From contig JASKJN010000009.1 in the NCBI GenBank assembly GCA_030153385.1, positions 1 through 36,640 of the forward strand: DNA of 36,640 nucleotides, in the 5' to 3' direction. The notes beneath the pieces are model-generated. The model searched no databases. It was not told the origin of the DNA and saw nothing but the letters and a program-made list of their open reading frames with translations. Both the position numbers and the translations under genes were made by a program. Each line of letters starts with the position of its first letter. Position 1 is the stretch's first letter. Below, in pieces: positions 9,973-33,829 of this stretch. This DNA is from Archaeoglobaceae archaeon (GTDB lineage: Archaea > Halobacteriota > Archaeoglobi > Archaeoglobales > Archaeoglobaceae).

Positions 9973-10611
9973 ATGGCCAGCATGGAAGAAGAGTTTGTTA
10001 ACGCCTTGGCAGAGCTTGATGAAACGAAAACATTAGAGCTTGCAAAGAAGAGGATAGCTGCGGGCGAGGATCCATTCAAGATTCTGGACGATATCAGAAA
10101 GGCCACCGATATTATAGGAAAAAGATACGAAGAAGGAAGATACTTCGTTTCAGATCTGATAATGGCTGGAGAAATTCTAAAGCAAGTGATGGAAATATTA
10201 AAGCCAGTGATTGGCGAAAAGAGGGGTGAAAGCAAAGGTAAAGTTGTCATAGGGACTGTCGAAGGAGACGTTCACGACATAGGAAAGAACATAGTCATAG
10301 CGCTTCTCGAGGCAGAAGGCTTTGAAGTCGTTGATCTTGGCGTTGATCAACCACCAGAGGTGTTTGTAAATGCCGTAAAAGAGCACAAACCGCAAGTTTT
10401 AGGCCTAAGCGGGCTTTTAACTGAGGCGATAGAATCGATGAAGAAGACAATAGAAGCGATAGAAAAGGCCGGGCTCAGAAATAAAGTGAAAATAATCATC
10501 GGCGGGGGAAGGACGAATGAGGAAGCAAAGCAGTACACAAAGGCTGATGACTGGGCAGACGATGCTGCAGTCGGTGTGAGGAAAATAAAGGCTTTGGCAG
10601 GGGTGGTTTGA
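9973..10611 (+). CDS. mtoC: Methyl-carrying corrinoid protein (MtoC/MtaC family)
   Basis: The 212-residue protein has an N-terminal helical cap domain (about 1-85, B12-binding 2 type) and a Rossmann-like cobalamin-binding domain. The signature D99-V-H101-D-I-G104 gives the lower axial His ligand of cobalt. GLSGLLT (about 144-150) and GGGRTNEE (about 177-184) complete the cofactor pocket. Such proteins accept a methyl group from a substrate-specific methyltransferase and hand it on. The ATG has a strong GGAGGTG six bases before. It opens an operon with a UroD-family methyltransferase, an MFS carrier, an MtrH-like enzyme and a reductive activator. Assignment to methoxy-group transfer (Mto) rests on that gene set; another methyl donor is possible. 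Confidence 0.88.
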   Translation: MASMEEEFVNALAELDETKTLELAKKRIAAGEDPFKILDDIRKATDIIGKRYEEGRYFVSDLIMAGEILKQVMEILKPVIGEKRGESKGKVVIGTVEGDVHDIGKNIVIALLEAEGFEVVDLGVDQPPEVFVNAVKEHKPQVLGLSGLLTEAIESMKKTIEAIEKAGLRNKVKIIIGGGRTNEEAKQYTKADDWADDAAVGVRKIKALAGVV

Positions 10612-11865
10612 ATGGATGTGGAAGAGATCAGAAGGGAGAAAATTGAAAGAATAGAAGCAGTGATAAAGGGAAAAGAACCTGACAAGGTGCCGATAACAGC
10701 AGCAACTACTGTTTGGCATGGTGCTTACGCTGGATATACGCCAAAGGAAGTTCTGTTTGATTACAGTAAATGCAAAGATGCTTGGCTCAAGGTTGCGAAG
10801 GATTTCAACTTCGATACTTTTACATTCATCCCGGGCTTGGAAGGGATGATATATACAATTGCGATGCTTAAAGATGCTGAGATGGCTGGAGCTGCAAGAT
10901 TCATACTTGGCCCAACGCATCTCGCCTTGGGAGATGTTTTCACAAGATGGCCTGGTTACGAGCTAAATGAGAACGCACATCCGCAGTTTATAGGAAAGGA
11001 GATAATGAAGGTAGATGAATACAAACAGCTGATCGAAGATCCGCTCGAATTCGTTAACAAGGTTGCAATGCCAAGAATAAACAAAAAGCTCGCAAATGTA
11101 GGCTCTGCAGAATACAACGCCGCGATGGCCAAGTATGGAGCAGAGCTTGCCAAATTCGGGGCATTTATGGCTGAAGCTTCTGCAGAACTGGCAAAGATCG
11201 GATATCCCACTTTTCCGATGTCCTGGAGCTACGCTCCGCTTGATTTCATCGGTGATTTCTTAAGGGACATAAAGAACGTGGTGATGGATCTGTACAGATA
11301 CAAAGATGTTGTAAAAGAGGCAGTCGAAGCTATTAAACCACTGGTGATAAAAGCAGCAGAACTTACAGCTCCGCCTGCTGAGATAAGAAAGCAAATTTTT
11401 GGTACTGAAGTAGTAGAATGTTTCTTCCCCCTGCACCTCAACGAATACCTGAATCCAAAGCTCTACAATGAATTCTACTGGCCATCTCTCAACGATGTTT
11501 TCAAAGAAGTTGTCAAGACGGGGCAAACACCTTTCGTTCTATTCGAAGGTAAGCACGATGCTCATCTCGAAACCCTGTTAGAAGCTCCAAAAGGAAAGAT
11601 AGTTGGTGTTTTCGAAAAAACAGATCCAAGAAAGGTCAGAGAAGTGCTTGGAAACCATGTTATATTAGTCAGCGGTCCACCAAACTCGCTGCTGATCGGC
11701 GGAACACCGCAAAAGGTTGAAGAATACATGAAAAGTTTGCTCACAGATTGCAAAGAAGGCGGAATGATGATCTGGCCGGGAGTTGATGGTGGAATATCGA
11801 GAGATGCGAAGCCAGAGAACGTTAAGGCGGTTGTGGAAGCCGTAGAGAAATACGGGAGATATTAA
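10612..11865 (+). CDS. mtoB: UroD-family substrate:corrinoid methyltransferase (MtoB-like)
   Basis: A 417-residue protein beginning one base after the corrinoid gene stop. Features of the uroporphyrinogen-decarboxylase/MtaA barrel family are PDKVPITAATTVWHG at the start, FPMSWSYAPLDF, LNEYLNPKLYNEFYWPSL and the ending MMIWPGVDGGI. The Zn-ligand pattern of MtaA (HxC...C) is not present. Instead E320-x14-E335 and H349 lie near the C-terminus, which recalls the E-x14-E-...-H zinc motif reported for bacterial ether-cleaving methyltransferases; here the last gap is 13, not the 20 I remember. The likely reaction is demethylation of a methoxylated compound onto the corrinoid protein. The substrate is inferred from operon context. 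Confidence 0.78.
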   Translation: MDVEEIRREKIERIEAVIKGKEPDKVPITAATTVWHGAYAGYTPKEVLFDYSKCKDAWLKVAKDFNFDTFTFIPGLEGMIYTIAMLKDAEMAGAARFILGPTHLALGDVFTRWPGYELNENAHPQFIGKEIMKVDEYKQLIEDPLEFVNKVAMPRINKKLANVGSAEYNAAMAKYGAELAKFGAFMAEASAELAKIGYPTFPMSWSYAPLDFIGDFLRDIKNVVMDLYRYKDVVKEAVEAIKPLVIKAAELTAPPAEIRKQIFGTEVVECFFPLHLNEYLNPKLYNEFYWPSLNDVFKEVVKTGQTPFVLFEGKHDAHLETLLEAPKGKIVGVFEKTDPRKVREVLGNHVILVSGPPNSLLIGGTPQKVEEYMKSLLTDCKEGGMMIWPGVDGGISRDAKPENVKAVVEAVEKYGRY

Positions 11866-11886
11866 TTTTATTTTTTGGTGTCCAAA

Positions 11887-13152
11887 ATGAATTTTGGGAT
11901 TGGTGAGAAGCATAGACAGCTCTATCCAATTACAGTCGCTTTGATGCTTCTATTCTCAATGCTAATGCTGATCTGGAGCCAGTTCTACCCATACATAATT
12001 CAACTGTATTCTCTTGAATCTGTATCAGCTGTTGCTGTTTCAGCATCGATTCTTGGTGCTGGAACGCTTCTAACACTTGTTTTAAGCGGCTACTTGGCAG
12101 ACAAATTTGGCCCAAAGATCCCGCTTGCAATTTCAGGAGCTTTAATCTTTCTCGGAATGTTTTTAATCTCGCAGATGTTCATTTTTGACCAGTGGAATTC
12201 AGCCAGTTTGTATTGGTATTCAGGTAGCTTCATAGTTGGCCTGGGTTCTGGTTTTTTGATCGGGGCTTTTCCAGTCGTTCTTGGCAGATGGTTCCCTGAC
12301 GCACCTGGCAAGGCTTTTGGAATTGCATTGTTTGGGCAGAACGTTTCCCCCATAGTTCTGGCACCGATTTCCGCATACCTGATATCGCTCGTACGGCTAC
12401 CCGGAACATTTATTGGGCTTGGAGTTATCGTATTTGCTGCCATATACCTAATAGGAGTTCTGCTGTGGAAGGTTCCAGATGCTGACTGGGCCCCAGAAGG
12501 ATTTAAGGTGTTAAAGGTCTCAGAAGAAAGTTTCTCGCTTAAACAAGCAATTTCCGATGCGAGATTCTGGATTCTATTCACAGCCATGCTTTCCACTGCA
12601 ATCGGGTGGTTCTTGATCCTGCTGAACGTTGCTACGATTGTCTTCGAGGGGCTTGTGGAAAAGGCAAGCTTAAGCTACGATTACGTCGTTGGCTTCTACA
12701 TACCCCTATTCATGTCCATCACTGCCTTAGGCAACGGATTTGGGGCGCTGTTTTGGGGCACGCTAAATGACCGCATCGGAACTCTAAAAACGTTACCGGT
12801 GCTTTACACAATCTGCGGGATTTCAATAATGCTTCTATATGCTTCCTACACAAACCCATTGCTTCTGATACTTTTCGGCGTATTGCTATACTTCACCCTT
12901 GGCGGTGAGCCAGCGGTTCATTTCAGCGCAGTTCCAACGTTCTTCGGAAGAAAATTTGTTGCGAGAATAACTTCTGTTCTGAACACATCTGTGATGACCG
13001 CTGCTGTGATTGGACCATATCTGGGAGCAGCTATTAGAGATCTGACAGACTCATACTTCTACTCTCTTCTGATCGCTGCAATTCTGCACTTCTTTGCAGC
13101 TTTGGTCGTATACTTTGGCAGAAGGTATGCCGGAGGTGGTAGGGATGTTTAA
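11887..13152 (+). CDS. MFS transporter in the methyl-transfer operon
   Basis: A 421-residue membrane protein with about 12 hydrophobic helices and the MFS loop signature GYLADKFGPKIPL between helices 2 and 3, where the family shows G-x-L-a-D-r-x-G-r-r. The halves are split by a charged central loop (about 195-220). The ATG at 11887 has GGTG six bases before; a TTG at 11875 is weaker. Overall it resembles oxalate/formate- and monocarboxylate-type carriers. Being flanked by the methyltransferase genes, it probably imports the methylated substrate or exports the demethylated product. It overlaps the next gene by 8 bases. Confidence 0.87.
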   Translation: MNFGIGEKHRQLYPITVALMLLFSMLMLIWSQFYPYIIQLYSLESVSAVAVSASILGAGTLLTLVLSGYLADKFGPKIPLAISGALIFLGMFLISQMFIFDQWNSASLYWYSGSFIVGLGSGFLIGAFPVVLGRWFPDAPGKAFGIALFGQNVSPIVLAPISAYLISLVRLPGTFIGLGVIVFAAIYLIGVLLWKVPDADWAPEGFKVLKVSEESFSLKQAISDARFWILFTAMLSTAIGWFLILLNVATIVFEGLVEKASLSYDYVVGFYIPLFMSITALGNGFGALFWGTLNDRIGTLKTLPVLYTICGISIMLLYASYTNPLLLILFGVLLYFTLGGEPAVHFSAVPTFFGRKFVARITSVLNTSVMTAAVIGPYLGAAIRDLTDSYFYSLLIAAILHFFAALVVYFGRRYAGGGRDV

Positions 13153-14014
13153 ATTTGAAAATCAGAAGGTTTTCGAGATTGCTGGCGTTAAGTTTGGTGG
13201 CGAGCTTGGAGAGAATCCAACGGTGCTGATCGGGAGCATTTTCTATGGAAAGCACAAGATCGTAGAAGATGAAAAGAAGGGTATCTTCAATCGAGAGATG
13301 GCTGAGAAGCTCATAAATGAGCAGGAAGAACTCAGCGACAAAACAGGCAATCCAGGAATTCTGGATGTCGTAGGAATGAGTGAAGAAGCCATAAAGAAAT
13401 ACATCGATTTCGTTGCCAGCGTTACCGAGAAGCCTTTTTTGATTGACTCAGCAACCGCAGACGTGAAGATTTCAGCAGCCAAATACGTTAAGGAGGTTGG
13501 ACTTGAAAAAAGAGTGATCTACAATTCCATATCGCCAGAAACGAAGGATAAAGAGATAAACGCTATCAAAGAAAGTGGAATCGAATCAGCTATCTTTCTC
13601 ACGTACACCTTCAACGTTACAAGCAGCAAGGCGCGAGTTGATGCGCTTGAAAAGATGCTTCCAAAGCTGAGCAACGTAGGTATTAGCAAGTTGCTTGTCG
13701 ACACCTTCGTGATGGATGTTCCGAGCTTGGCTGCGTCAGCAAAGGCTGCAATTGAGATAAAGAAGAAAACAGGCTTCCCATGTGGTTGCGGTGCACACAA
13801 CGCAATCGCAAGCTGGAAAGGTTTCAGAAACATGTTTGGAAAAGATGCTGAGAAGTTTGCTGTGCTCATTGCTGACGTTTTCCAGATAATTCTTGGCTCA
13901 GACTTCGTGCTTTATGGGCCCATAGAAGACTGCAAAATCGTTTTCCCAGCAGTGTACACGATAGACACAACTTACAGATACCTGAGAAGAACAAAAGATT
14001 TTCTCGTGATCTGA
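13145..14014 (+). CDS. mtoA: MtrH-like methyltransferase, methyl-corrinoid to tetrahydromethanopterin
   Basis: The 289-residue protein matches subunit H of tetrahydromethanopterin S-methyltransferase: start MFKFENQKVFEIAGVKFGG, NPTVLIGSIFYGKHKIV, GNPGILDVVG, and PCGCGAHNAIASWKG. No other Mtr subunits are nearby, so it acts free of the membrane complex. In corrinoid operons such proteins take the methyl group from the corrinoid protein to H4MPT, which feeds the archaeal reverse acetyl-CoA or methyl-oxidation path. The ATG at 13145 lies inside the end of the MFS gene and is preceded by GGAGGTGG. The stop abuts the next start directly. Confidence 0.88.
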   Translation: MFKFENQKVFEIAGVKFGGELGENPTVLIGSIFYGKHKIVEDEKKGIFNREMAEKLINEQEELSDKTGNPGILDVVGMSEEAIKKYIDFVASVTEKPFLIDSATADVKISAAKYVKEVGLEKRVIYNSISPETKDKEINAIKESGIESAIFLTYTFNVTSSKARVDALEKMLPKLSNVGISKLLVDTFVMDVPSLAASAKAAIEIKKKTGFPCGCGAHNAIASWKGFRNMFGKDAEKFAVLIADVFQIILGSDFVLYGPIEDCKIVFPAVYTIDTTYRYLRRTKDFLVI

Positions 14015-15808
14015 ATGGTCTCCATACGTCTTGAGCCGATAGGAAAGGTTTTCAAAGCTGATGATGGAAACTTACTTGAGATTCTGCGACAAGCAGGGGT
14101 TTCGATTCGCTCAGATTGTGGAGGCAAAGGTATCTGCGGGAAGTGCAAGATCGTAATTGTGGAAGCGAACGCAACTTTCAGCGAGATCAGTGAGGCGGAG
14201 AGAAAGAATCTTACAGAAGAAGAAATAAAATCAGGCTACAGACTTGCCTGTCAAACCACAATTTCTGGAAAGTCTGCAACCATCTTCATACCAAAGGAGA
14301 GCAAAGCAGAGGTCAGAAAGATCTCAGATCTGTATCGCGAAGCCAAAATCGAATTAAAGCCTGCGATTCGCAAATTTTTTGTCAAACTTCAGAAGCCAAC
14401 GCTTGCTGATAACTCACCAGACTACGAAAGATTGACCCGCATCTTTGGAGAATTTGAGATACCTTTAGAGCTTCTTAGAAAATTACCAAAAAAGCTCAGA
14501 GAAGCTGATTGGGAAATTACAGCGACTTTCTGGAAAAATACGCTCATTGATATCGAAAAAGGCAAATCAGAAGAGTGCTACGGTCTTGCTGTAGACATAG
14601 GATCGTCAAAGATCGTCTGCCATTTAGTTGACATCAACAGCGGCAAGACAGTTGCTAAGGGGTATGAGGAAAATCCGCAGGTCGCTTATGGTGAGGACAT
14701 CGTTTCAAGAGTAACATACGCTTCAAAAAGTCCAGAAAATTTGAAAAAGCTTCAAAAAGCTGTTGTTGATGCGATTAACGGCATCATTGCAAAGCTCTGC
14801 AAAGATGCAAAAGTAGAAAAAGAAAGAATTTACGAAGCCATGGTTGTTGGAAATGCTGTCATGCACCACCTTTTCTTTGGAATTGAGCCAAAATACATCA
14901 GCGTTTCACCATTCACACCAGCGATAAGGAAGGGAGTGAGCTTCTCTGCAAAGGAGATCGGTTTAGATATATGCAAGCAGGGAGTTGTCAGCTCTTTGCC
15001 TTTAATTGCTGGTTTCGTCGGCGCAGATGCGGTGGCAAATATTGCCATTACTGGAGTTCACAAAGAAGACAAGCTTTCCATGGTTATAGACATAGGAACG
15101 AACACCGAAATTATACTGGGGAACAAAGATAGACTTTTAGCCTGTTCTACACCTTCTGGGCCAGCTTTTGAAGGTGCGCATATGGCCTACGGCATCAAAG
15201 CCGTCAGCGGAGCAATAGACAGCGTCAGAATCGTTGAAGGAAATGTAGAGTATAGCACCATTGATAATGAAAAACCAAAGGGTATCTGCGGTACGGGAAT
15301 GATCGATCTGGTTGCAGAGCTTTACAAGAATGGATTCATCAACAGGTATGGGAAGTTTAAAGAAAAGGAAAGCGACAGGATAATTTTCAGCCCAACTCCA
15401 AGATTTGTTGTTGCAAGAGCTGAAGAAACAGAATTTGGAAAGCCGATAACTGTGAGCGAGAAAGATATAAACGAGTTTCTCTTAGCAAAGGCTGCAATAA
15501 AGGCTGGATGGATGCTTCTGATGAGAAAAATGGGGATTGATGAGAGCAAGCTTGAAAAGATCTACCTTGCGGGCTCATTTGGCAGATACATAAACGTTGA
15601 GAATGCCAAGCTCATCGGGCTTCTTCCAAACATTCCACCAGAAAAAATCGATTATGCGGGCGATACTGCTGTGGGTGGAGCAAAGATGGCTTTGCTAAGC
15701 TTAGATGTTCGGGATGAGATGGAGAAAGTCGTGCAGAAAGTTGAATACGTCGAGCTGTCCGTAGAGAAGGATTTTCACAGCGTTTTTATTCGAGCAATTC
15801 CAATTTAA
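14015..15808 (+). CDS. mtoD: Corrinoid reductive activator, 2Fe-2S plus ASKHA/DUF4445 (RamA/MtoD-like)
   Basis: A 597-residue protein. The N-terminal [2Fe-2S] ferredoxin domain has C35-x5-C41-x2-C44 and C79. A linker follows, then an actin-like ATPase part (from about 190: YGLAVDIGSSKIVCHLVD; later MVIDIGTNTEI and LAGSFGRYI). This family uses ATP to drive one-electron reduction of inactivated Co(II) corrinoid back to Co(I). Methanogen RamA has a C-terminal [4Fe-4S] pair; here the single iron site is N-terminal as in bacterial activators. ATG follows the mtrH-like stop without a gap, so the five genes are one operon. The last 42 bases before the stop's final base recur exactly at 19392-19433. 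Confidence 0.88.
   Translation: MVSIRLEPIGKVFKADDGNLLEILRQAGVSIRSDCGGKGICGKCKIVIVEANATFSEISEAERKNLTEEEIKSGYRLACQTTISGKSATIFIPKESKAEVRKISDLYREAKIELKPAIRKFFVKLQKPTLADNSPDYERLTRIFGEFEIPLELLRKLPKKLREADWEITATFWKNTLIDIEKGKSEECYGLAVDIGSSKIVCHLVDINSGKTVAKGYEENPQVAYGEDIVSRVTYASKSPENLKKLQKAVVDAINGIIAKLCKDAKVEKERIYEAMVVGNAVMHHLFFGIEPKYISVSPFTPAIRKGVSFSAKEIGLDICKQGVVSSLPLIAGFVGADAVANIAITGVHKEDKLSMVIDIGTNTEIILGNKDRLLACSTPSGPAFEGAHMAYGIKAVSGAIDSVRIVEGNVEYSTIDNEKPKGICGTGMIDLVAELYKNGFINRYGKFKEKESDRIIFSPTPRFVVARAEETEFGKPITVSEKDINEFLLAKAAIKAGWMLLMRKMGIDESKLEKIYLAGSFGRYINVENAKLIGLLPNIPPEKIDYAGDTAVGGAKMALLSLDVRDEMEKVVQKVEYVELSVEKDFHSVFIRAIPI
15766..15807 (+). repeat. 42-bp exact direct repeat, copy 1 (3' end of activator gene)
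   Basis: Bases 15766-15807 are identical to 19392-19433. Here they encode the natural C-terminus of the activator (KDFHSVFIRAIPI), so this is probably the original copy. Confidence 0.95.
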
Positions 15809-19557: not shown

Positions 19558-19693
19558 GGGGTCGTGGCGTAGTCAGGAAGCGCGGCGGGCTCCAGTGGTG
19601 TGATGAGTTGTGGGTCTGCTGAGGCGTGATGATCCATTGGAGCGCTGACCCGAAGAGACCCGCAAGTCGTGGGTTCAAATCCCACCGACCCCA
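19558..19693 (+). tRNA. tRNA-Trp (CCA) with intron
   Basis: Acceptor stem GGGGTCG (19558-19564) pairs with CGACCCC (19686-19692), with discriminator A at 19693. The D stem is GCG(T)/(G)CGC; anticodon stem GCGGG (19585-19589) pairs with CCCGC (19659-19663); the T arm is GTGGG-TTCAAAT-CCCAC. The anticodon CCA is at 19592-19594. The 62-base intron (19596-19657) lies between positions 37 and 38, the standard archaeal site cut by the splicing endonuclease. Confidence 0.95.
19596..19657 (+). ncRNA. tRNA-Trp intron acting as C/D-box methylation guide
   Basis: The intron carries a box C (GTGATGA, 19600-19606), box D' (CTGA, 19619-19622), box C' (GTGATGA, 19626-19632) and box D (CTGA, 19644-19647). 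The guide before box D, TTGGAGCG, pairs with the 5' exon; counting five bases from the box targets C34. The guide before D' (GGGTCT) pairs with AGACCC at the 3' exon junction and targets position 39. These are the two 2'-O-methylation sites known for the haloarchaeal tRNA-Trp intron, so the design is conserved here. Confidence 0.85.
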
Positions 19694-19703
19694 CTTAAAA
19701 AAT

Positions 19704-21572
19704 TTAGTTTAATCCGAGCTTTTCTCTCTTGCTCAGGATAACCTTTTCTATGAGCTCTGCCGCCTTTATCGGATCTTCTTCAACCAGAACTTTTCCGCCA
19801 GTCAGGCTCTCGAGATCTTCCGTTAAAAGTTTGACAGCATCCTCGCTTCCAGTTATTGGAGGAATTGGCGATACGTGGGTTGTGATTCCGTAAGCCAATG
19901 CAAATACCGCATCTATAGTTGCCTTTTGTTCCATATACTCCGGGGCGGTAACAGCGATTGGTAGCTGTGGAATGTCAACATTCAAAGCGTCCGCTATCAG
20001 TCTGACCAAATAAGCGCATCTCCCAACGTCTGTGCAGGTGCCAAAGCTGAGAACAGGCGGAATTCCAAGTGCTCTGCATACCTTTTTCAGCCCTTCTCCA
20101 GCCAATTCGATTGCATCAAGCGAAGTCAAACCAGCAACCTGCAGTGCAGCATTCCCACATCCCATTGAAAGGATCAAGATGCCCCTCTTTATCAGCTCCT
20201 TGGCGATAGTTACCGTGTTGTAATCGTGCGGACCATTTTTGAGTGTTGTACAGCTAACAAGGGCAACTATTCCCTTTATATCTCCACTCTTTATTGCATT
20301 CAGCAGCGGATCAAGATTTCCACCCAAAGCCTTCAGAATAGCTTCTGTTGAGAAGCCGACGAGTATTTTCTGCTTTTTCTGAATTCGCAAGGCCTTATCT
20401 TTATCTCTTTTCTTAAAATTCTCTATGGCCATCTCGATAAGCTTTTCAGCTATTTTTTCAACCTTTTCAGGCTCGTAGTCCATCGCTTCGTTTATTCCGC
20501 GAAATCTCACGACCTTGCTCACAGGAATGATCCTAACGCCATAGCGCTGGTATTCTGGCAATGAGGGGAGGGCACAGTTCATATCTGCTGCAAAAACATC
20601 GATGCAACTTGTTGCCAGGGCAAATTCCTGAACGATCCAGTTTCCCACTATTCCAGCAAAAACTGGACTGTCAATTCTCTGTAAAACCTCCTGACCAGTC
20701 TCTATGAATCCAATTATCCTTAAACCCTTCGCTCCAGCTTCTTTAGCTCTCCTCTGAAATTCCTCACGCTCTGCGAGCTTTATCAAAGCTACCGCTACGA
20801 AGGGCTCATGGCCATCGACTGCAACATTAACGAATTCCGGATCAAGAATTCCGAGATCCGCATGGCTTTCATGAGGCATCGGTGTTCCAAAAAGGATATC
20901 TTGGATTATCTCGAGAGATAACTGTCCTGCTAAGCAAGTTGCGATGCTCATCGCCATGCTCTTCTTAGCTAATGAAACATAGTTGCTGTCAACATTTGTC
21001 ATTGCGGATGTTCCCACAGTCAATAATTCCTGAAATACGCCAGAAGGTATTATTCCAAGCTTTTTCCATACCTCATTTCTCTTTTCCGGGGCAAAAATTT
21101 CAACAAGCTTGCTTCTCTCTACCGAGCTTAAATCCGCTATTACAAAGTCCGCAACTTTATTTGCAAGCTCTTTTACGTCATCCCCATGAATCCCAAGCAT
21201 ATTAGCGAACCACTTAAGCTTCTCAACATCCTTTATCTCATAAGGCGTCCTATTCAGCGCTGTTGCCTTAAGAGTCTTCGCAGCCTCTATCGCATGATAA
21301 GTATAGGCTTCAGTTCCGAGCATGTTCTTGTGGACAAAGTTTCTGATCACCATCCCGGCAGCGTCGATTCCACAAGCTCCGTAGGGCTTTTCCTTCCCAA
21401 TCCTGCAAGGCCCCATGCTACAAAGTTGACAGCTCAAACCTACACTGCAAAAAGGACATCTCCCCTTTTCCTGAGCTTTGAATCGATCAACGACATTCGT
21501 TACCCCTTCAGCACTCACTTTTTGATACATTTCGTTGACACTCTCATGGTAGCTAACTCTTTCCGATTCCAT
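19704..21572 (-). CDS. cooS: Anaerobic CO dehydrogenase catalytic subunit, atypical C-cluster
   Basis: A 622-residue Ni-CODH (CooS) family protein. The N-terminal cluster B/D cysteines are C39, C42/C48, C51, C56 and C67 in CPFCSVGLSCQLCSMGPCRI and GACGID. C-cluster ligands H255 (DGHEP), C333 (DMNC), C441 (VSC), C472 (GCG) and C513 (GTC) are present. However the conserved CCTGNE segment, which gives the bridging Cys, is IETGQE (I290-E291), so one Ni,Fe-cluster ligand is lost. His93 and Lys550 are kept. It may be a CODH variant with altered chemistry or a non-catalytic paralogue. It is transcribed alone, divergent from a broken HTH-10 regulator; ATTTATAAGG at about 21593-21602 is a probable promoter. 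Its end faces the tRNA-Trp. Confidence 0.88.
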   Translation of the reverse strand: MESERVSYHESVNEMYQKVSAEGVTNVVDRFKAQEKGRCPFCSVGLSCQLCSMGPCRIGKEKPYGACGIDAAGMVIRNFVHKNMLGTEAYTYHAIEAAKTLKATALNRTPYEIKDVEKLKWFANMLGIHGDDVKELANKVADFVIADLSSVERSKLVEIFAPEKRNEVWKKLGIIPSGVFQELLTVGTSAMTNVDSNYVSLAKKSMAMSIATCLAGQLSLEIIQDILFGTPMPHESHADLGILDPEFVNVAVDGHEPFVAVALIKLAEREEFQRRAKEAGAKGLRIIGFIETGQEVLQRIDSPVFAGIVGNWIVQEFALATSCIDVFAADMNCALPSLPEYQRYGVRIIPVSKVVRFRGINEAMDYEPEKVEKIAEKLIEMAIENFKKRDKDKALRIQKKQKILVGFSTEAILKALGGNLDPLLNAIKSGDIKGIVALVSCTTLKNGPHDYNTVTIAKELIKRGILILSMGCGNAALQVAGLTSLDAIELAGEGLKKVCRALGIPPVLSFGTCTDVGRCAYLVRLIADALNVDIPQLPIAVTAPEYMEQKATIDAVFALAYGITTHVSPIPPITGSEDAVKLLTEDLESLTGGKVLVEEDPIKAAELIEKVILSKREKLGLN

Positions 21573-21652: not shown

Positions 21653-22267
21653 GTGCTCGAAGTTCAGATAAGAACAAAGCTTCCAGAAAAATGCGCTCTC
21701 AGCTCGCTCAAAGAGGTTGTGAATAACTGCATTGTAAAAATAGAGGGTTTCGCAAGAAAAGATGATACTGTAAGAAGCCTGCTCCGAGTAAAGGCTAAAA
21801 AAATAGAGGATTTGCTTTCAAATCTCCCTCCACAGTGCGAGCTCGCAATAACTTCAGAGAGAGATGCTAAGATCTTGCTTAGGGAGCACAGCTGTTTTGT
21901 AGCACTGCCAATACTTGAATCGGGCTGTATAATAACTTCTGTAGAAATTAAGAAAGATCACGTTATTTGGCAGACCATCTGCAATGATGAGGACTTTTTA
22001 AGTCTGATCGAAAAGCTCGAATCCGCAAAAGGTCGAATTTGAAATAACTTAGAAGGGAAGACCTGAAGGTAAGAGCGAAATAACTTTCAGAGAAGAAGAA
22101 GTGCTGAGATTCGCTCTTGAAAAAGGTTACTTCGATTTTCCGAAGAAAATAAGGCTTGAAGAAATTGCGGAACATTTTGGGATTGCAGGTTCACCGTCTC
22201 GGAAATTCTGAGAAGAGCACAGAAGAAAATTCTCGAAAAGTATTTCAAAGAGATTGACTCCTGCTAA
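21653..22267 (+). pseudogene. Broken bat-type HTH-10 transcription regulator
   Basis: From the GTG at 21653, 129 codons are open (MLEVQIRTKLPEKCALSSLK ... EKLESAKGRI), then stop. A second frame continues with KGRPEGKSEITFREEEVLRF, ALEKGYFDFPKKIRLEEIAE and HFGIA. Near 22188 the reading must shift again to FTVSEILRRAQKKILEKYFK, stopping at 22267. The last two parts are a complete HTH-10 (bacterio-opsin activator) DNA-binding domain. At least two frame lesions therefore split one gene. It was divergent from cooS and probably regulated it. Base-call error is possible but two separate errors are less likely. The 3' end overlaps the convergent LOG-family gene by about 23 bases. Confidence 0.75.
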
Positions 22268-28558: not shown

Positions 28559-29269
28559 TTATTCGATCTTCATAGATTTAGCGTATTCGCGAGCAGCGAT
28601 CTGCCTCTTACACCTATCGCAAATTATTTCCATCATTCCAAGGCTCTCTGCATGCTTTTTAGAAATAACGAACCTTCCGCAGATACTGCACTCTAACATT
28701 TCATGATGGGCAACGATCAGCTTTTCAACAACGATCTCCCCCTTTTCATCAAATCTTATCGCTCCCGTTGGACAGATGTTCACACATGCGAGGCAACCTC
28801 TACAGATTTCGGTCTCAATTTCGAAGGGAGGTGAGACCCTTTTTTCGATACCCCTTCCTTCAAAGGAGATCGCATGGGCTCCCATAATCGAGCACACGTT
28901 AACGCACAATCCACAGAGAATACACCTTCTTTCTCCCTCAACAGCTATGCCGTAGCGGGAGGCCAAATTCTCCACAAGATCCGATGATGTGTATTTTGCA
29001 AGAAGCTCGATTATCCCTTTCCTGAGATCTTCAATCCTCTTTGAGTTCGTCCTAACCTTCATACCACCTCTAACGTCTGTGGAGCAGGAGGTTACAACCC
29101 TCCACTCTCCGTTAACTTCAATCTCTACTATACAGAGTCTACATGCACCATAGCTTCCAACCGCTTTGTGATAGCAGATATGTGGTATTTCAAAGCCGAG
29201 ATCTAGAAGAATTTCCAGAAGATTACCTTTTTTTACATCAAATATCGTGCCATCTACTTCAATTCTCAT
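28559..29269 (-). CDS. NuoG-N-like iron-sulfur subunit with C-terminal zinc ribbon-like tail
   Basis: A 236-residue protein. The N-terminal [2Fe-2S] domain reads CYHKAVGSYGACRLC with a further Cys in TSCST. Two [4Fe-4S] sites follow: CILCGLCVNVC and CRGCLACVNIC. The tail (CSICGRF ... CDRCK) carries four Cys like a small metal ribbon. It equals the electron-wiring part of NuoG, HndD or FdhA without any hydrogenase or molybdenum domain. Its start overlaps the NuoF-like stop by 4 bases. It probably bridges the flavin subunit and the CODH/CooF pair. It ends the operon. Confidence 0.82.
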   Translation of the reverse strand: MRIEVDGTIFDVKKGNLLEILLDLGFEIPHICYHKAVGSYGACRLCIVEIEVNGEWRVVTSCSTDVRGGMKVRTNSKRIEDLRKGIIELLAKYTSSDLVENLASRYGIAVEGERRCILCGLCVNVCSIMGAHAISFEGRGIEKRVSPPFEIETEICRGCLACVNICPTGAIRFDEKGEIVVEKLIVAHHEMLECSICGRFVISKKHAESLGMMEIICDRCKRQIAAREYAKSMKIE

Positions 29270-31038
29270 ATTCTCTCCACCGCATCGAATTTGCAGACTT
29301 TAAAGCATGACCCACATTTTATGCACAGATCTTGATCTATCGAAAAAACATCGTCTGTCTTTTTGATCGCACCGACTGGACAGTTGATCTCACACAAACC
29401 GCATGAAACGCACTTCTCAGGCAAAATACTGTATCTCACAAGTGCCCTGCACACACCAGCAGGACATCTCCCTCTAATGTGCTCTAAATACTCCTCCCTG
29501 AAATACTTTAAAGTCGTTAAAAGTGGATTTGGTGCCGTCTTTCCCAAACCGCAGAGAGAGGCTGTAGCAACGATATCGGCAAGCTTTTCAAGTCTTTCGA
29601 TATCTTCTTGACTCCCTTCACCTTGTGTGATCCTCAGAATTACTCCAAACATCTCGTTCAATCCGAGTCTGCAGGGAATACATTTACCACATGACTCAGC
29701 CTTTGTGAACTCCAAGAAGTATTTGGCAACGTCAACCATGCACGAATCGTTACCAATAACCACTAATCCTCCAGAACCCATGACAGAACCCAATTCCACC
29801 AGCCTTTCGTAATCAACGGGAACATCCATCAGTTCAACTGGTACGCATCCTCCCGTCGGCCCCCCTGTCTGCACAGCCTTCACATCGTCTGCTTCCCCGA
29901 TCTCCAAAACTATCTCCCTCAGCGAAATCCCCATTGGAACTTCGATCAGCCCGGTGTTCTTTACCTTCCCTACTACAGAAAAAACCTTTGTTCCCTTGCT
30001 TTTTTCTGTTCCAAAGGATGCAAAAAACTTCCAGCCCTTCAATATTATCACAGGGATGTTTGCCCAGGTCTCCACGTTATTTATCACGGTTGGTTTTTCC
30101 CAGAGACCTTTCTCAGCAGGATAAGGGGGCCTTATTCTTGGTTCACCCGGATATCCCTCAATCGATGCGATCAGGGCGGTTTCTTCTCCGCAAACAAAGG
30201 CACCAGCCCCTTTAACAATATGAATCTCAAAGGAAAAGTCGGAATCCATTATATTTTCACCCAGAAATCCGTTATCTTTTGCAATTTTAACAGCTTCCTC
30301 AAGAGTTCTAACAGCCAGTGGATATTCGTTTCTAACGTAGATGAAGCCTTTATTCGAACCTACAGCGTATGCACCTATTGTCATTCCCTCTATCACGCTG
30401 AATGGATCTCCCTCAAGAACACTTCGGTCCATGTAAGCTCCCGGATCTCCTTCATCCGCATTGCATATTACAAACTTCTCCCCCTCATTTTTCCGTGCTA
30501 TTTCCCACTTCATTCCTGTTGGGAACCCCGCTCCGCCCCTTCCTCTTAATCCCGATTTTTTTATCTCTTCAATAATCTCTTCAGGTTTCATTTCGAGAGC
30601 TTTTTGAAGGGCGTGGTATCCTCCCATGGCGATGTACTGCTCAATACTGAGCGGTTCAATCACACCGCAGTTTCTCAAAACGATCTTCACTTGCTTTCTG
30701 TAGAAGGGGTGCTCCCTTAGATGGGGGAGGTTGTGATGCCCTTCAAGTTCCGGATGATCGATTTCAAGCGGAGAGAATTCCCAAGGATAGAACCATCCTA
30801 AAATTTCGGCCTTTTCAAGTTCCTTAACATTTCTGTAAACGATCGGAGCCTTTCCATCCTCCTGGACAGAAACAAGGGGTTCGGCAGAGCAAAATCCCAG
30901 ACATCCAACTCCTTTGGCGTTAAGAGACTCTTTTACCTTTAAGGCACCGGCAGCGATTCCGCAAGTGGATGTTCCCACCGTAATCCTTTCGCCGTATAAC
31001 GAGCAGATCCCCTTCTCCTTAAGTTTTTGTAGATCCAC
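29266..31038 (-). CDS. NuoF/HndC-like FMN- and NAD(P)-binding subunit
   Basis: A 590-residue diaphorase. A thioredoxin-like [2Fe-2S] domain (about 1-90, TSTCGIAAGA and GCLGFC) is followed by the FMN/NAD(P)H domain with GLRGRGGAGFPTGMKWEIAR and NADEGDPGAYMDRSVLEGDP. Then come an SLBB fold and the [4Fe-4S] site ESCGKCIPCRLGLNEM. The C-terminus adds two ferredoxin sites, CVSCGLCEINC and CIKCGSCFKVC. This layout is that of HndC, HydB and HoxF-type subunits in NAD(P)-linked, often electron-bifurcating, enzymes. Its placement with CooS and CooF suggests CO-dependent reduction of NAD(P)+. It overlaps the NuoE-like gene by about 20 bases. Confidence 0.92.
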   Translation of the reverse strand: MDLQKLKEKGICSLYGERITVGTSTCGIAAGALKVKESLNAKGVGCLGFCSAEPLVSVQEDGKAPIVYRNVKELEKAEILGWFYPWEFSPLEIDHPELEGHHNLPHLREHPFYRKQVKIVLRNCGVIEPLSIEQYIAMGGYHALQKALEMKPEEIIEEIKKSGLRGRGGAGFPTGMKWEIARKNEGEKFVICNADEGDPGAYMDRSVLEGDPFSVIEGMTIGAYAVGSNKGFIYVRNEYPLAVRTLEEAVKIAKDNGFLGENIMDSDFSFEIHIVKGAGAFVCGEETALIASIEGYPGEPRIRPPYPAEKGLWEKPTVINNVETWANIPVIILKGWKFFASFGTEKSKGTKVFSVVGKVKNTGLIEVPMGISLREIVLEIGEADDVKAVQTGGPTGGCVPVELMDVPVDYERLVELGSVMGSGGLVVIGNDSCMVDVAKYFLEFTKAESCGKCIPCRLGLNEMFGVILRITQGEGSQEDIERLEKLADIVATASLCGLGKTAPNPLLTTLKYFREEYLEHIRGRCPAGVCRALVRYSILPEKCVSCGLCEINCPVGAIKKTDDVFSIDQDLCIKCGSCFKVCKFDAVERI

Positions 31039-31420
31039 CTTCCAACCCCCTCTCGACCAGCTTTCGAAGTCTGCTTATGGTCATCTTTCCGTGAATTTCT
31101 CCATCGATCACAACAACGGGAGCCATGCTACATGCACCGAAACATCTTATCGGCTCGTAACCTAGATTAACCCCATCAACATATCCCCTTATAGCATCCT
31201 CTAGAACCTCTGATCCCTTGATCACACAAGCGGTTCCCTTACAGATGTTGATCTTATGCTTTGCAGGAGGTTTTAGGGAAAAAGCTGAATAGAATGTGGC
31301 TATGGAGTACAACCTGCTGATGGGAACGTTAAATTTGCTTGAAATTCTTTTAAGCTCCTCTTTCGGTAGATATCCGTATCTGTTTTGTATATCAAGAAGA
31401 GAATTGATTAAAAATTCCAT
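31019..31420 (-). CDS. NuoE-like thioredoxin-fold [2Fe-2S] subunit
   Basis: A 133-residue protein starting MEFLINSLLDIQNRYGYLPK, with helical N-terminus and a thioredoxin-like domain. The [2Fe-2S] ligands are C-x4-C in CKGTAC and C-x3-C in CFGAC, as in NuoE/HndA. The ATG at 31420 has GGTGATT just before; the longer frame to 31462 would overlap cooS. It lies 10 bases after the cooS stop and overlaps the NuoF-like start. It is the partner of the flavin subunit in every known diaphorase of this class. Confidence 0.92.
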   Translation of the reverse strand: MEFLINSLLDIQNRYGYLPKEELKRISSKFNVPISRLYSIATFYSAFSLKPPAKHKINICKGTACVIKGSEVLEDAIRGYVDGVNLGYEPIRCFGACSMAPVVVIDGEIHGKMTISRLRKLVERGLEGGSTKT

Positions 31421-31430
31421 TGAATCACCT

Positions 31431-33284
31431 TTAAATTCCGAGCTTCTTTCGTTTTTTATCAATGTGCTTTATTATCACCTCAGCCGCCTTCTCAGGATCG
31501 GGCTCGACGACAAATTTACCCCCAGTCAGCTCCTCCACTTTGTTAGTCAGAACATCGAGCACCAACTGGCTTCCGTGTATCGGCGGTGGAACGCCCAATA
31601 CCACGAGAAGTCCTGAGCTAACGAAGTAAGTTCCGATCGCAATGGCCTTCTCGGAATACCATTCCATTGCCGCTCCGGCTGCAGGCAGATCGCTTATATC
31701 AACACCCAATTCGTTTGCAAGGGCACACAATGCGACGAGAATTCTTGAGTTATCAACACAGGAGCCGACGTGAAGAACCGGCGGGATTTTAAGGGCCTCG
31801 CATACCTTTTTCAGCCCATCTCCGGCAAGATTCGCACTCCCCATCCTTTTCAGACCAGCTTTCGCATCCGCAACGGCGGCACATCCAGTATCCAAAACGA
31901 GAACATCATTTTCTATCAACTTCTTCGCAAGTACCGTGTGTCCGTAATCTTGCCTTACCTTTGGATTGTTGCAACCAACAGATCCGACAACTCCCTTTAT
32001 GCTACCTTCCTTGATAGCATCGATGAGGGGTTGAAGAGTCCCTCCAAGTGCCTTAACTATAGCTTCTACTGAGAACCCTGTCATCAACTCCATTGGCTTA
32101 ACATCTGGGATTTTTATGAAATCTGGATTTCTCTTTCTGAATCTCTCTATCGCAAGCTTTAGAACTTCTCTTGCTTTTTCATCAGCATTTTCAGGCGTAA
32201 ACTCTATATGAATTGCTCCCTTAAACTTCGCTTTCGGAGATGTTGTGACCACGGCTGTATGATAGCATTTTGCTACATCCACAATTCCGGGCATTATACA
32301 TTGGTAGTCAACGATTATCACATCCACAACCCCGGTTCCGATGACAAGCTCCTGTAGCAGATGATTTCCTGCCATTGGAATACCTTTCCTCATAAGAACT
32401 TCATTTCCAGTGCAACAAAGTCCCGCGAGATTTATGCCATCCGCTCCTGCTTCTTTTGCAAGTCTTGTGATCTCTTCATCGGAGGCAGCTTCCACCACAG
32501 CTTCCGATACAATGGGATTGTGTCCGTGAAGAATCACGTTCACTTCATTCTTCTTGAGGGTTGCGAGGTTGATCGTTGACACTTTCGGCTGCGGTGTTCC
32601 GAAAAGGATGTCCGAGACTTCTGTGGCGATCATGGAACCTCCAAATCCATCTGCTAAAGAAGCCCTCATGCACTGGAGAAGGATGTTGACTGGATCGTTG
32701 TCAACACCCATGTGTGTCCTGTGCATAAGCTCAACAACTTCTCTGTCAATTCCCCTTGGGATTATTCTGAGCTTTTCCCAAATTTCCAATCTTCTCTTGG
32801 GGGCTCTGTCAATCATCTGAATCCTTTCTTTCTTCGAGCCAAAATCCTCCATCATCGATTCTGCAAGTTCATGGGCGATTTCTTCAACGCTTTTTGAAGT
32901 ATCAATCCCGTACTCCTGCGCCAATCTCTTCAACTTCTCCCCATCTCTCACAGAGTATGCTTTTATTTTTCCAACCAATGCCAAAACCTCGACTAAATCT
33001 CTCCCATGATCGCTGTGAGATGCGGCACCAGAAGCTACAGCTCTTGCGAGATTCCTCGCCACTATTATGTCTGCATCCGCTCCGCATACGCCTTTCTGCG
33101 GTTCATCTCCAAAGGGATTAATCCTGCAGGGACCCATGGCACAGTTTCTACAGCTCAAACCGAGGGCGCAGAATCCACACTGAGGTTCCTGTTTTTCCAA
33201 TCTATCCCACACGAGGTCGATACCTTCTTTCTTCAGCTTTTCAATCATAATTTTGGCATCTTTTTGGATTGTTTTTTCTCCCAT
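31431..33284 (-). CDS. cooS: Anaerobic CO dehydrogenase catalytic subunit, canonical
   Basis: A 617-residue Ni-CODH with all expected ligands. Cluster B/D cysteines C36, C39, C45, C48, C53 and C67 lie in CGFCALGLSCRNCAMGPCRI and GVCGA. The C-cluster has HGHNP, GLCCTGNEVLMR, DYQCIMP, SVGCNNP, DTGCAA and GSCVD. ASHSDHGR holds the catalytic His. It oxidises CO to CO2 and passes electrons through clusters B and D. ATG 33284 has GAGGTGG; a GTG three codons earlier is less likely. It follows the CooF-like gene directly and precedes NuoE/F/G-like genes. No acetyl-CoA synthase subunits or cooC are nearby, which suggests a CO-oxidising rather than acetyl-CoA-forming role. Confidence 0.95.
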   Translation of the reverse strand: MGEKTIQKDAKIMIEKLKKEGIDLVWDRLEKQEPQCGFCALGLSCRNCAMGPCRINPFGDEPQKGVCGADADIIVARNLARAVASGAASHSDHGRDLVEVLALVGKIKAYSVRDGEKLKRLAQEYGIDTSKSVEEIAHELAESMMEDFGSKKERIQMIDRAPKRRLEIWEKLRIIPRGIDREVVELMHRTHMGVDNDPVNILLQCMRASLADGFGGSMIATEVSDILFGTPQPKVSTINLATLKKNEVNVILHGHNPIVSEAVVEAASDEEITRLAKEAGADGINLAGLCCTGNEVLMRKGIPMAGNHLLQELVIGTGVVDVIIVDYQCIMPGIVDVAKCYHTAVVTTSPKAKFKGAIHIEFTPENADEKAREVLKLAIERFRKRNPDFIKIPDVKPMELMTGFSVEAIVKALGGTLQPLIDAIKEGSIKGVVGSVGCNNPKVRQDYGHTVLAKKLIENDVLVLDTGCAAVADAKAGLKRMGSANLAGDGLKKVCEALKIPPVLHVGSCVDNSRILVALCALANELGVDISDLPAAGAAMEWYSEKAIAIGTYFVSSGLLVVLGVPPPIHGSQLVLDVLTNKVEELTGGKFVVEPDPEKAAEVIIKHIDKKRKKLGI

Positions 33285-33286
33285 AA

Positions 33287-33829
33287 TTACCACCTCACAA
33301 ACCAGACAACATCTTTAAGTCGTACTGTTGATTTCTTGGCTTCCTCCTTTCCTTCAACAAAGAACTTTGCAGCTTCTATTTTTCTTTTAGCCGAAAGTTC
33401 ATCGACTTTTTCAAATTTTAATGCACCAACTGGACAGAATTCAACACATGCTGGAATTTTTCCTTTCTCGAGCCGATCGACACACTGATCGCATTTGAAT
33501 GCGGTTCTTTCGAAACGAATTGCTCCAAAGGGGCAGACGATGGCACAGCTTCTACATCCGATACACTTAGACTGATCGATTATGACGGGGCCTTTAGAGC
33601 TCCTTTCGATCGCATCCGTAGGGCACACTCCAAGACAGGGAGCATCGATGCAGTGCCTGCAGTTCATGGGAACAGGGACGCCAACGAAAACAACATCCAT
33701 GCGGGGCTTGACACCTTCCATCACTGCTGAGATGAGATTTTTTCCCTTAGAGTGCTCGATCGCACATGCAATTTCGCACGTCTTACAGCCGACACATAAA
33801 TTCAGATCGGGATACAGAACGAGCATCAT
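33287..33829 (-). CDS. cooF: CooF-like polyferredoxin
   Basis: A 180-residue protein with four [4Fe-4S] sites in the HycB/CooF arrangement: CVGCKTCEIAC, CRHCIDAPCLGVC, CIGCRSCAIVC and CDQC...CVEFC. CooF takes electrons from CooS cluster D and passes them on, in bacteria to a hydrogenase. Here the downstream genes encode a NuoEFG-like diaphorase instead. It has no signal peptide, so it is cytoplasmic. It is the first gene of the operon; AAATATATG near 33853-33861 on this strand is a likely TATA box, giving a nearly leaderless mRNA. It ends within the cooS ribosome binding site. Confidence 0.88.
   Translation of the reverse strand: MMLVLYPDLNLCVGCKTCEIACAIEHSKGKNLISAVMEGVKPRMDVVFVGVPVPMNCRHCIDAPCLGVCPTDAIERSSKGPVIIDQSKCIGCRSCAIVCPFGAIRFERTAFKCDQCVDRLEKGKIPACVEFCPVGALKFEKVDELSAKRKIEAAKFFVEGKEEAKKSTVRLKDVVWFVRW

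Follow-up and report, generated by a model that had tools for sequence, protein, structure and literature searches.

The closest solved relative of the protein described here is CooS-V of Carboxydothermus hydrogenoformans (PDB 7b7q, 7b7t, 7b95, 7b97 and 7b9a; PMC9311411). According to the portions of that paper available, its cluster is an Fe/S/O hybrid with Glu295 and Glu556 as ligands, Glu295 being bound to Fe through a carboxylate oxygen. X-ray fluorescence gave no Ni signal, neither CO oxidation nor CO2 reduction was detected, NO reduction did not exceed background and hydroxylamine reduction was slow (kcat 0.13 per s). The cluster is restructured depending on redox state, turnover is very slow, and the cluster potentials lie ~300 mV below those of E. 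coli HCP. In the same portions, replacement of Cys295 by Glu is named as the mark of a subclade, and a C295E variant of CODH-II is cited as Ni-deficient and without CO oxidation.

The group had been defined earlier as 'D-1' of Ni-CODH clade D, with Tyr for His93 and an extra Glu (Inoue et al., PMC6344411). The available part of that study proposes HCP-like properties for D-1 and reports HypA/HypB (Ni chaperones) and COG1063 near D-1 genes. The A. fulgidus CooS AF1849 was assigned to clade D in a context survey (PMC13056359, available in part), and A. fulgidus cooS transcripts showed average to low expression without CO response, as far as the accessible part of PMC4543118 reports. Sequences like that of the protein described here are already excluded in the part available of a 2026 marine survey (PMC13240472).

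The CooS-like gene and its cluster residues

The window, i.e. the whole stretch of 36,640 nucleotides analysed, is one contig (36.6 kb) from a draft genome that measures 1.4 Mb and has a stated completeness of 95%. Its CooS-like open reading frame (ORF) is uninterrupted (Table 1). CODH-II numbering (C. hydrogenoformans, 1su6) was carried through a near-identical CODH-II relative (L210) with a gap-free alignment to 1su6. Following alignment, residues 290-295 were found to read IETGQE where CooS has CCTGNE, placing Glu291 at the Cys295 column, as an earlier note on this DNA had reported; the five other C-cluster ligands, which it had listed as kept, are intact. Lys550, also given there as kept, equals CODH-II Lys563. 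For 'His93', the claim holds in the protein's own numbering only: this window residue falls on the CODH-II His96 column, and Tyr90 occupies the column of the catalytic acid-base His93. Overlooked at that stage were Tyr90, a second gained carboxylate (Glu548, at a column occupied by His561 in CODH-II and by Ser in the canonical CooS of the window) and the D-cluster region, in which CODH-II C39 and C47 correspond to Cys39 and Ser47 and an additional Cys42 is present. The B-cluster residues Cys48, 51, 56 and 67 match CODH-II C48, C51, C56 and C70.

Table 1. Features of the window, with positions counted from its first nucleotide.
Feature	Position	Strand	Basis
Very probable CooS-V-type (clade D, structural group D-1) hybrid-cluster protein, 622 aa	19704..21572	-	Intact ORF; 7b7q best solved match, E 1.9e-212; in Glu295 clade, SH-aLRT 100
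Glu291 codon GAG (CODH-II Cys295 / CooS-V Glu295 column)	20700..20702	-	Sequence, alignment
Glu548 codon GAA (CooS-V Glu556 column, second carboxylate ligand; CODH-II His561)	19929..19931	-	Alignment; ligand role in homologue from PMC9311411 (available in part)
Tyr90 codon TAT (CODH-II acid-base His93 column)	21303..21305	-	Sequence, alignment
His255 codon (CODH-II His261)	20808..20810	-	Alignment; position computed from ORF end 21572
Cys333 codon (CODH-II Cys333)	20574..20576	-	Alignment; position computed from ORF end 21572
Cys441 codon (CODH-II Cys446)	20250..20252	-	Alignment; position computed from ORF end 21572
Cys472 codon (CODH-II Cys476)	20157..20159	-	Alignment; position computed from ORF end 21572
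Cys513 codon (CODH-II Cys526; CooS-V persulfide Cys521)	20034..20036	-	Alignment; position computed from ORF end 21572
Canonical CooS, same genome; six C-cluster ligands and His93 and Lys563 columns kept; comparison only	31431..33293	-	Alignment; 38% identity to variant
Divergent HTH_10-type regulator gene, broken	21653..22250	+	129-aa ORF 21653-22042, rest in other frames with stops; PF04967 in L032 relative

Among solved structures, CooS-V was the top match, the runner-up reaching an E value of 1.8e-135. Both proteins (53.5% identity) fall in one clade but on different sub-branches, the window protein being archaeal and known here from its sequence. In CooS-V numbering, they have in common Glu295, Glu556, Tyr91, His94, Asn337, His259, the four Cys, Lys558 and the D-cluster pair Cys38/Cys41. 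The published D-1 residue table (His, Glu, four Cys, Tyr and Lys, in the available part of PMC6344411) fits the window protein without a residue difference. Like D-1, it has Glu at the Cys295 column together with the five other ligands, Tyr90, Lys550, the extra Glu548 two residues before this Lys, and a type III D-cluster (Gly41 to Cys), with Cys39, Cys42 and Ser47 as in CooS-V. One relative (L006), 81% identical and with the same residues, is presumably the A. fulgidus VC-16 copy.

The fold and most cluster residues are common to the variant and canonical Ni,Fe-CODH (CODH-II and the window's own CooS), but Cys295, His93 and His/Ser561 are replaced by Glu, Tyr and Glu, so that the variant lacks both the five Cys plus one His at the C-cluster and the acid-base His93 of active Ni,Fe-CODH. 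The canonical CooS, correctly located by the earlier note ~10 kb away, has Cys at the column in question and is 37.8% identical to the variant. For HCP (TIGR01703; class III 7e0l/7wsx), the cluster is held by His, two Glu and four Cys, likewise found in the variant, with columns equated via CooS-V and ligand equivalences taken from the available parts of PMC9311411 and PMC6344411 rather than from a direct HCP alignment. Prismane/CODH family PF03063 covers the window protein; its HCP profile score (TIGR01703) of 51.9 bits lies below the cut-off of 360.8 and, unlike HCP, it has the full CODH architecture.

A structure model of the window protein (pLDDT 79.9; N-terminal cluster region mostly <50) shows the fold and not ligand geometry. 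The predicted fold superposed on 7b7q with Z 56.0 and rmsd 1.9 over 572 residues, other CooS fitting equally well; Z was 31 against class III HCP.

Other genes of the window were annotated as well. A tRNA gene at 19558-19693 (+), missed by ARAGORN at default settings, bears an intron containing a box C/D guide RNA (Rfam sR3, 19596-19650). The canonical CooS is flanked, within 28559-33829 (-), by a ferredoxin-like protein (33287-33829) and NuoE-, NuoF- and NuoG-like diaphorase subunits, a gene content that suggests CO oxidation coupled to NAD(P). Genes for a corrinoid protein, a uroporphyrinogen-decarboxylase-like methyltransferase, a transporter, an MtrH-like protein and a corrinoid activator lie at 9973-15808 (+), in what looks like a methyl-group transfer cluster.

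The Glu295 clade and its conservation

Homologues were collected from 218 loci; identical cores were collapsed, resulting in 194 unique proteins, of which 193 were kept (L024, 374 aa, was left out of the alignment) and joined with CooS-V to give 194 rows. Glu occupies the 295 column in 126 rows, Cys in 67 and Asp in one, so CCTGNE is not 'otherwise universal', as had been claimed; the homologues were gathered using the window protein and patterns favouring the Glu295 group, and these shares are therefore not frequencies. After thinning by identity, a quick tree of 116 rows was built with the trait columns removed and the root not inferred. All 58 Glu295 rows, the window protein and CooS-V included, form a single clade (SH-aLRT 100) requiring one change, which answers the check for a separate clade proposed in the earlier note. 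Glu or Asp at 556 likewise requires one change and is wider than Glu295, including 21 rows with Cys295. Given a root among the canonical rows, the second carboxylate would thus precede the loss of Cys295.

All 126 Glu295 rows have Tyr91 and Lys558, and 125 of them also have Glu556, Asn337 and the four Cys, the sole exception being L184. In the window's order, 23 of 57 genomes carry a CooS-like gene with Glu, in one case cut, and a further three carry fragments only; Glu stands at the column in 23/23 loci with such a gene. Glu295 is encoded by GAA (69) and GAG (56), and Cys295 by TGC (40) and TGT (27). As all three bases must differ between Cys (TGY) and Glu (GAR), and both Glu codons occur in relatives, a single base error is excluded as the cause. 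Four close pairs of relatives gave dN/dS values of 0.028-0.064, and a fifth gave 0.042 with dS near saturation; dS was saturated between the window gene and ten relatives, so that the ratios come from closer pairs among the relatives only. Relaxed selection, named beforehand as grounds for giving up the interpretation, was not seen in these close pairs. As judged from these sequences, the Glu295 group is a conserved non-CODH group and a product neither of decay nor of sequencing error.

Some homologues depart from the common pattern. In L121 (G082), Asp occurs naturally at the Cys295 column, together with Glu at the 556 column; this Asp is a separate change outside the Glu295 clade, and a structure of an engineered C295D CODH-II exists (7zx3). 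L184 (G585), an open frame of the Glu295 clade, carries Ser, Gly, Ser and Ser in place of four C-cluster Cys, as well as Asp at 556, and is perhaps a dead paralogue. In L137 (G076, of the window's phylum), the Glu295 gene contains one in-frame TAG, read as either pyrrolysine or an early stop. Another clade (L028-L031, L196, L204, L205 and L217) combines Cys295 and Glu556 with replacements of His93 by Tyr and of Lys563 by Gln; some members of the window's family carry it as well, and it matches published clade C, as described in the accessible part of PMC6344411. In a plasmid collection, six records matched, the best with 32% identity.

Gene neighbourhoods and distribution of HCP

Gene orders were compared for 18 archaeal loci, comprising the window and L032-L049 minus L034, which has 36 bases of upstream sequence. 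A gene for an HTH_10 regulator adjoins the Glu295 gene in nine of these, the window included; it is intact in the eight relatives and broken in the window, either as a pseudogene or through an assembly error. Only this regulator recurs, and no conserved enzyme partner adjoining the gene was found among the 18 loci.

Flanking genes were further compared between 80 Glu295 loci and 20 Cys295 controls. A rubrerythrin, flavodiiron, FTR or HAO-like gene lies near 14/80 Glu295 loci vs 0/20 controls, the Glu295 loci being non-independent (few lineages), often contig-cut and the source of the query proteins, and the controls hand-chosen. Eight loci of ANME-2 or Methanosarcinales type have rubrerythrin and flavodiiron genes ahead of the CooS-like gene, in most of them with a ferredoxin-thioredoxin reductase chain in between. 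A multihaem cytochrome (PF13447) lies at most two genes away in six loci, and a 4Fe-4S protein family is found nearby in 16 of the 80. The control flanks contained no rubrerythrin, flavodiiron, FTR, HAO-like, 4Fe-4S or HTH_10 family. The window's own locus has no rubrerythrin, flavodiiron, FTR or HAO-like gene adjoining, and its lineage shows the regulator only. A hydroxylamine oxidoreductase-like cytochrome in cooS clusters of Methanoperedens BLZ2 is mentioned in the available part of a 2026 paper (PMC13079737), and the eLife 2026 context survey, in the part available, states no clear pattern for the clade (PMC13056359). A search for literature joining cooS, flavodiiron and ANME returned none, and the words flavodiiron and rubrerythrin are missing from the main text of two context surveys, supplementary files lying outside the scope of this comparison. 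The stress-gene context is possibly a new lead, short of proof.

HCP genes were searched with TIGR01703 at 1e-40, with positive controls that included E. coli and M. jannaschii, and were found in none of the 57 genomes of the window's order. For two larger sets, genomes were scored for both gene types, the Glu295-type being assigned by score range with residues checked in the fetched loci only. The 392 genomes of the window's phylum were divided into 38 with both, 59 with the Glu295-type only, 91 with HCP only and 204 with neither (p 0.14). The corresponding numbers for 299 genomes of a bacterial phylum, where the Glu295-type count includes two partial genes and excludes the degenerate L184, were 41, 13, 175 and 70 (p 0.62). 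Replacement of HCP, or co-occurrence with it, was consequently dropped as a general rule: there is no association either way in the two phyla, and only the order-wide absence of HCP is left.

Proposed function and alternatives

The gene very probably encodes a CooS-V-type protein of Ni-CODH clade D, group D-1, with an Fe/S/O hybrid cluster, performing neither CO oxidation nor CO2 reduction and likely acting as a low-potential reductase or in redox sensing. By analogy, we hold with high confidence that the archaeal protein would behave like CooS-V. It would be a CODH-fold homodimer in which the hybrid cluster replaces the Ni,Fe C-cluster, with His255, Glu291, Cys333, Cys441, Cys472, Cys513 (a persulfide when oxidised) and Glu548 as putative ligands. 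Electrons would reach this cluster via the B-cluster (Cys48, 51, 56 and 67) and the subunit-bridging D-cluster (Cys39 and Cys42), and a substrate channel may open upon reduction, as in CooS-V. Neither CO oxidation nor CO2 reduction would be expected; the protein would most likely reduce small oxidised species of nitrogen or oxygen, or act in redox sensing. The observation that started this work is thus real and was mostly read correctly. Its two proposals, a change of function instead of decay and Glu as an oxygen ligand, are borne out by CooS-V, for which the phenomenon is already in print (PMC9311411, available in part).

A CO dehydrogenase in which Glu291 supplies an oxygen ligand to a Ni,Fe cluster is very improbable. 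In its favour, the window protein reaches 881 bits with the NCBIfam equivalog CO_DH_cata (cut-off 478), and the Lys563 column is kept; genetic work on M. acetivorans that points to CO is also cited by Inoue et al. (PMC6344411, available in part). As far as the accessible part of PMC13079737 goes, five CooS-type genes of Methanoperedens BLZ2 rise with CO plus nitrate and its CO oxidation is linked to its five CooS; of the four CooS found here in that organism, two are Glu295 (L105 and L108). The same source gives lower cooS levels for CO without nitrate, close to those with methane plus nitrate, so that the expression, reported for the genes as a group, fits nitrate as well as CO. Against CO dehydrogenase activity stand CooS-V itself, which has the same residues and for which the available text reports neither Ni signal nor CO activity, the Ni-deficient and CO-inactive C295E CODH-II cited there, Tyr90 in place of the acid-base His93, and the A. 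fulgidus cooS transcripts without CO response (PMC4543118, available in part). Loss of function or a misread codon has next to no probability. The frameshifted regulator next door and the Glu295 paralogue L184, lacking four C-cluster Cys, would fit decay, but the ORF is intact, the codon change involves three bases with both GAA and GAG used by relatives, dN/dS is 0.03-0.06 in close pairs and Glu is kept in 23/23 loci of the order, which refutes this explanation for the family.

With the hybrid-cluster reading retained, the role may still be sensing rather than detoxification, a change in cluster shape upon contact with NO or upon a redox shift being signalled to a partner or transcription factor; we regard this as possible but rather unlikely. 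It agrees with the redox-dependent restructuring and very slow turnover of CooS-V (PMC9311411, available in part), the regulator gene adjoining the window gene and eight relatives, the CRP/FNR genes beside 5/80 Glu295 loci, and the regulatory role proposed for clade D in the available part of the eLife 2026 survey (PMC13056359). However, CRP/FNR genes also occur at 1/20 control loci, the window's regulator is broken while its CooS-like gene is intact, and a neighbouring regulator gene is no proof that signalling takes place. A detoxification role is in turn weakened by the lack of NO reduction above background and the very slow hydroxylamine reduction of CooS-V. Further points against the main reading are the absence of the stress-gene context from the window's own lineage, the HypA/HypB genes near D-1 genes and the M. 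acetivorans genetics given by Inoue et al. (PMC6344411, available in part), and the fact that HCP and Glu295 genes are not mutually exclusive outside the order. A cellular role of the hybrid-cluster protein in stress defence is accordingly put forward tentatively, at somewhat below even chances.

A broader scheme is offered as a speculation that we consider doubtful. CooS-V-type proteins with Glu295 would take the place of HCP in Archaeoglobales, and would belong to wider modules against anaerobic oxidative and nitrosative stress, reducing N-oxides or reactive oxygen beside flavodiiron protein, rubrerythrin, FTR and HAO-like cytochromes. They would have arisen stepwise, the second Glu being gained first with Cys295 kept, followed by Glu (once Asp) at 295. 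If this scheme is true, several archaeal 'cooS' genes to which CO oxidation is now ascribed, including two in Methanoperedens BLZ2, do not encode CO dehydrogenases. Genomes with the gene are credited with CO dehydrogenase owing to an NCBIfam equivalog score far above cut-off, and the enzyme so credited is probably unable to oxidise CO; for the clade, the gene neighbourhoods suggest a concrete role in stress defence.
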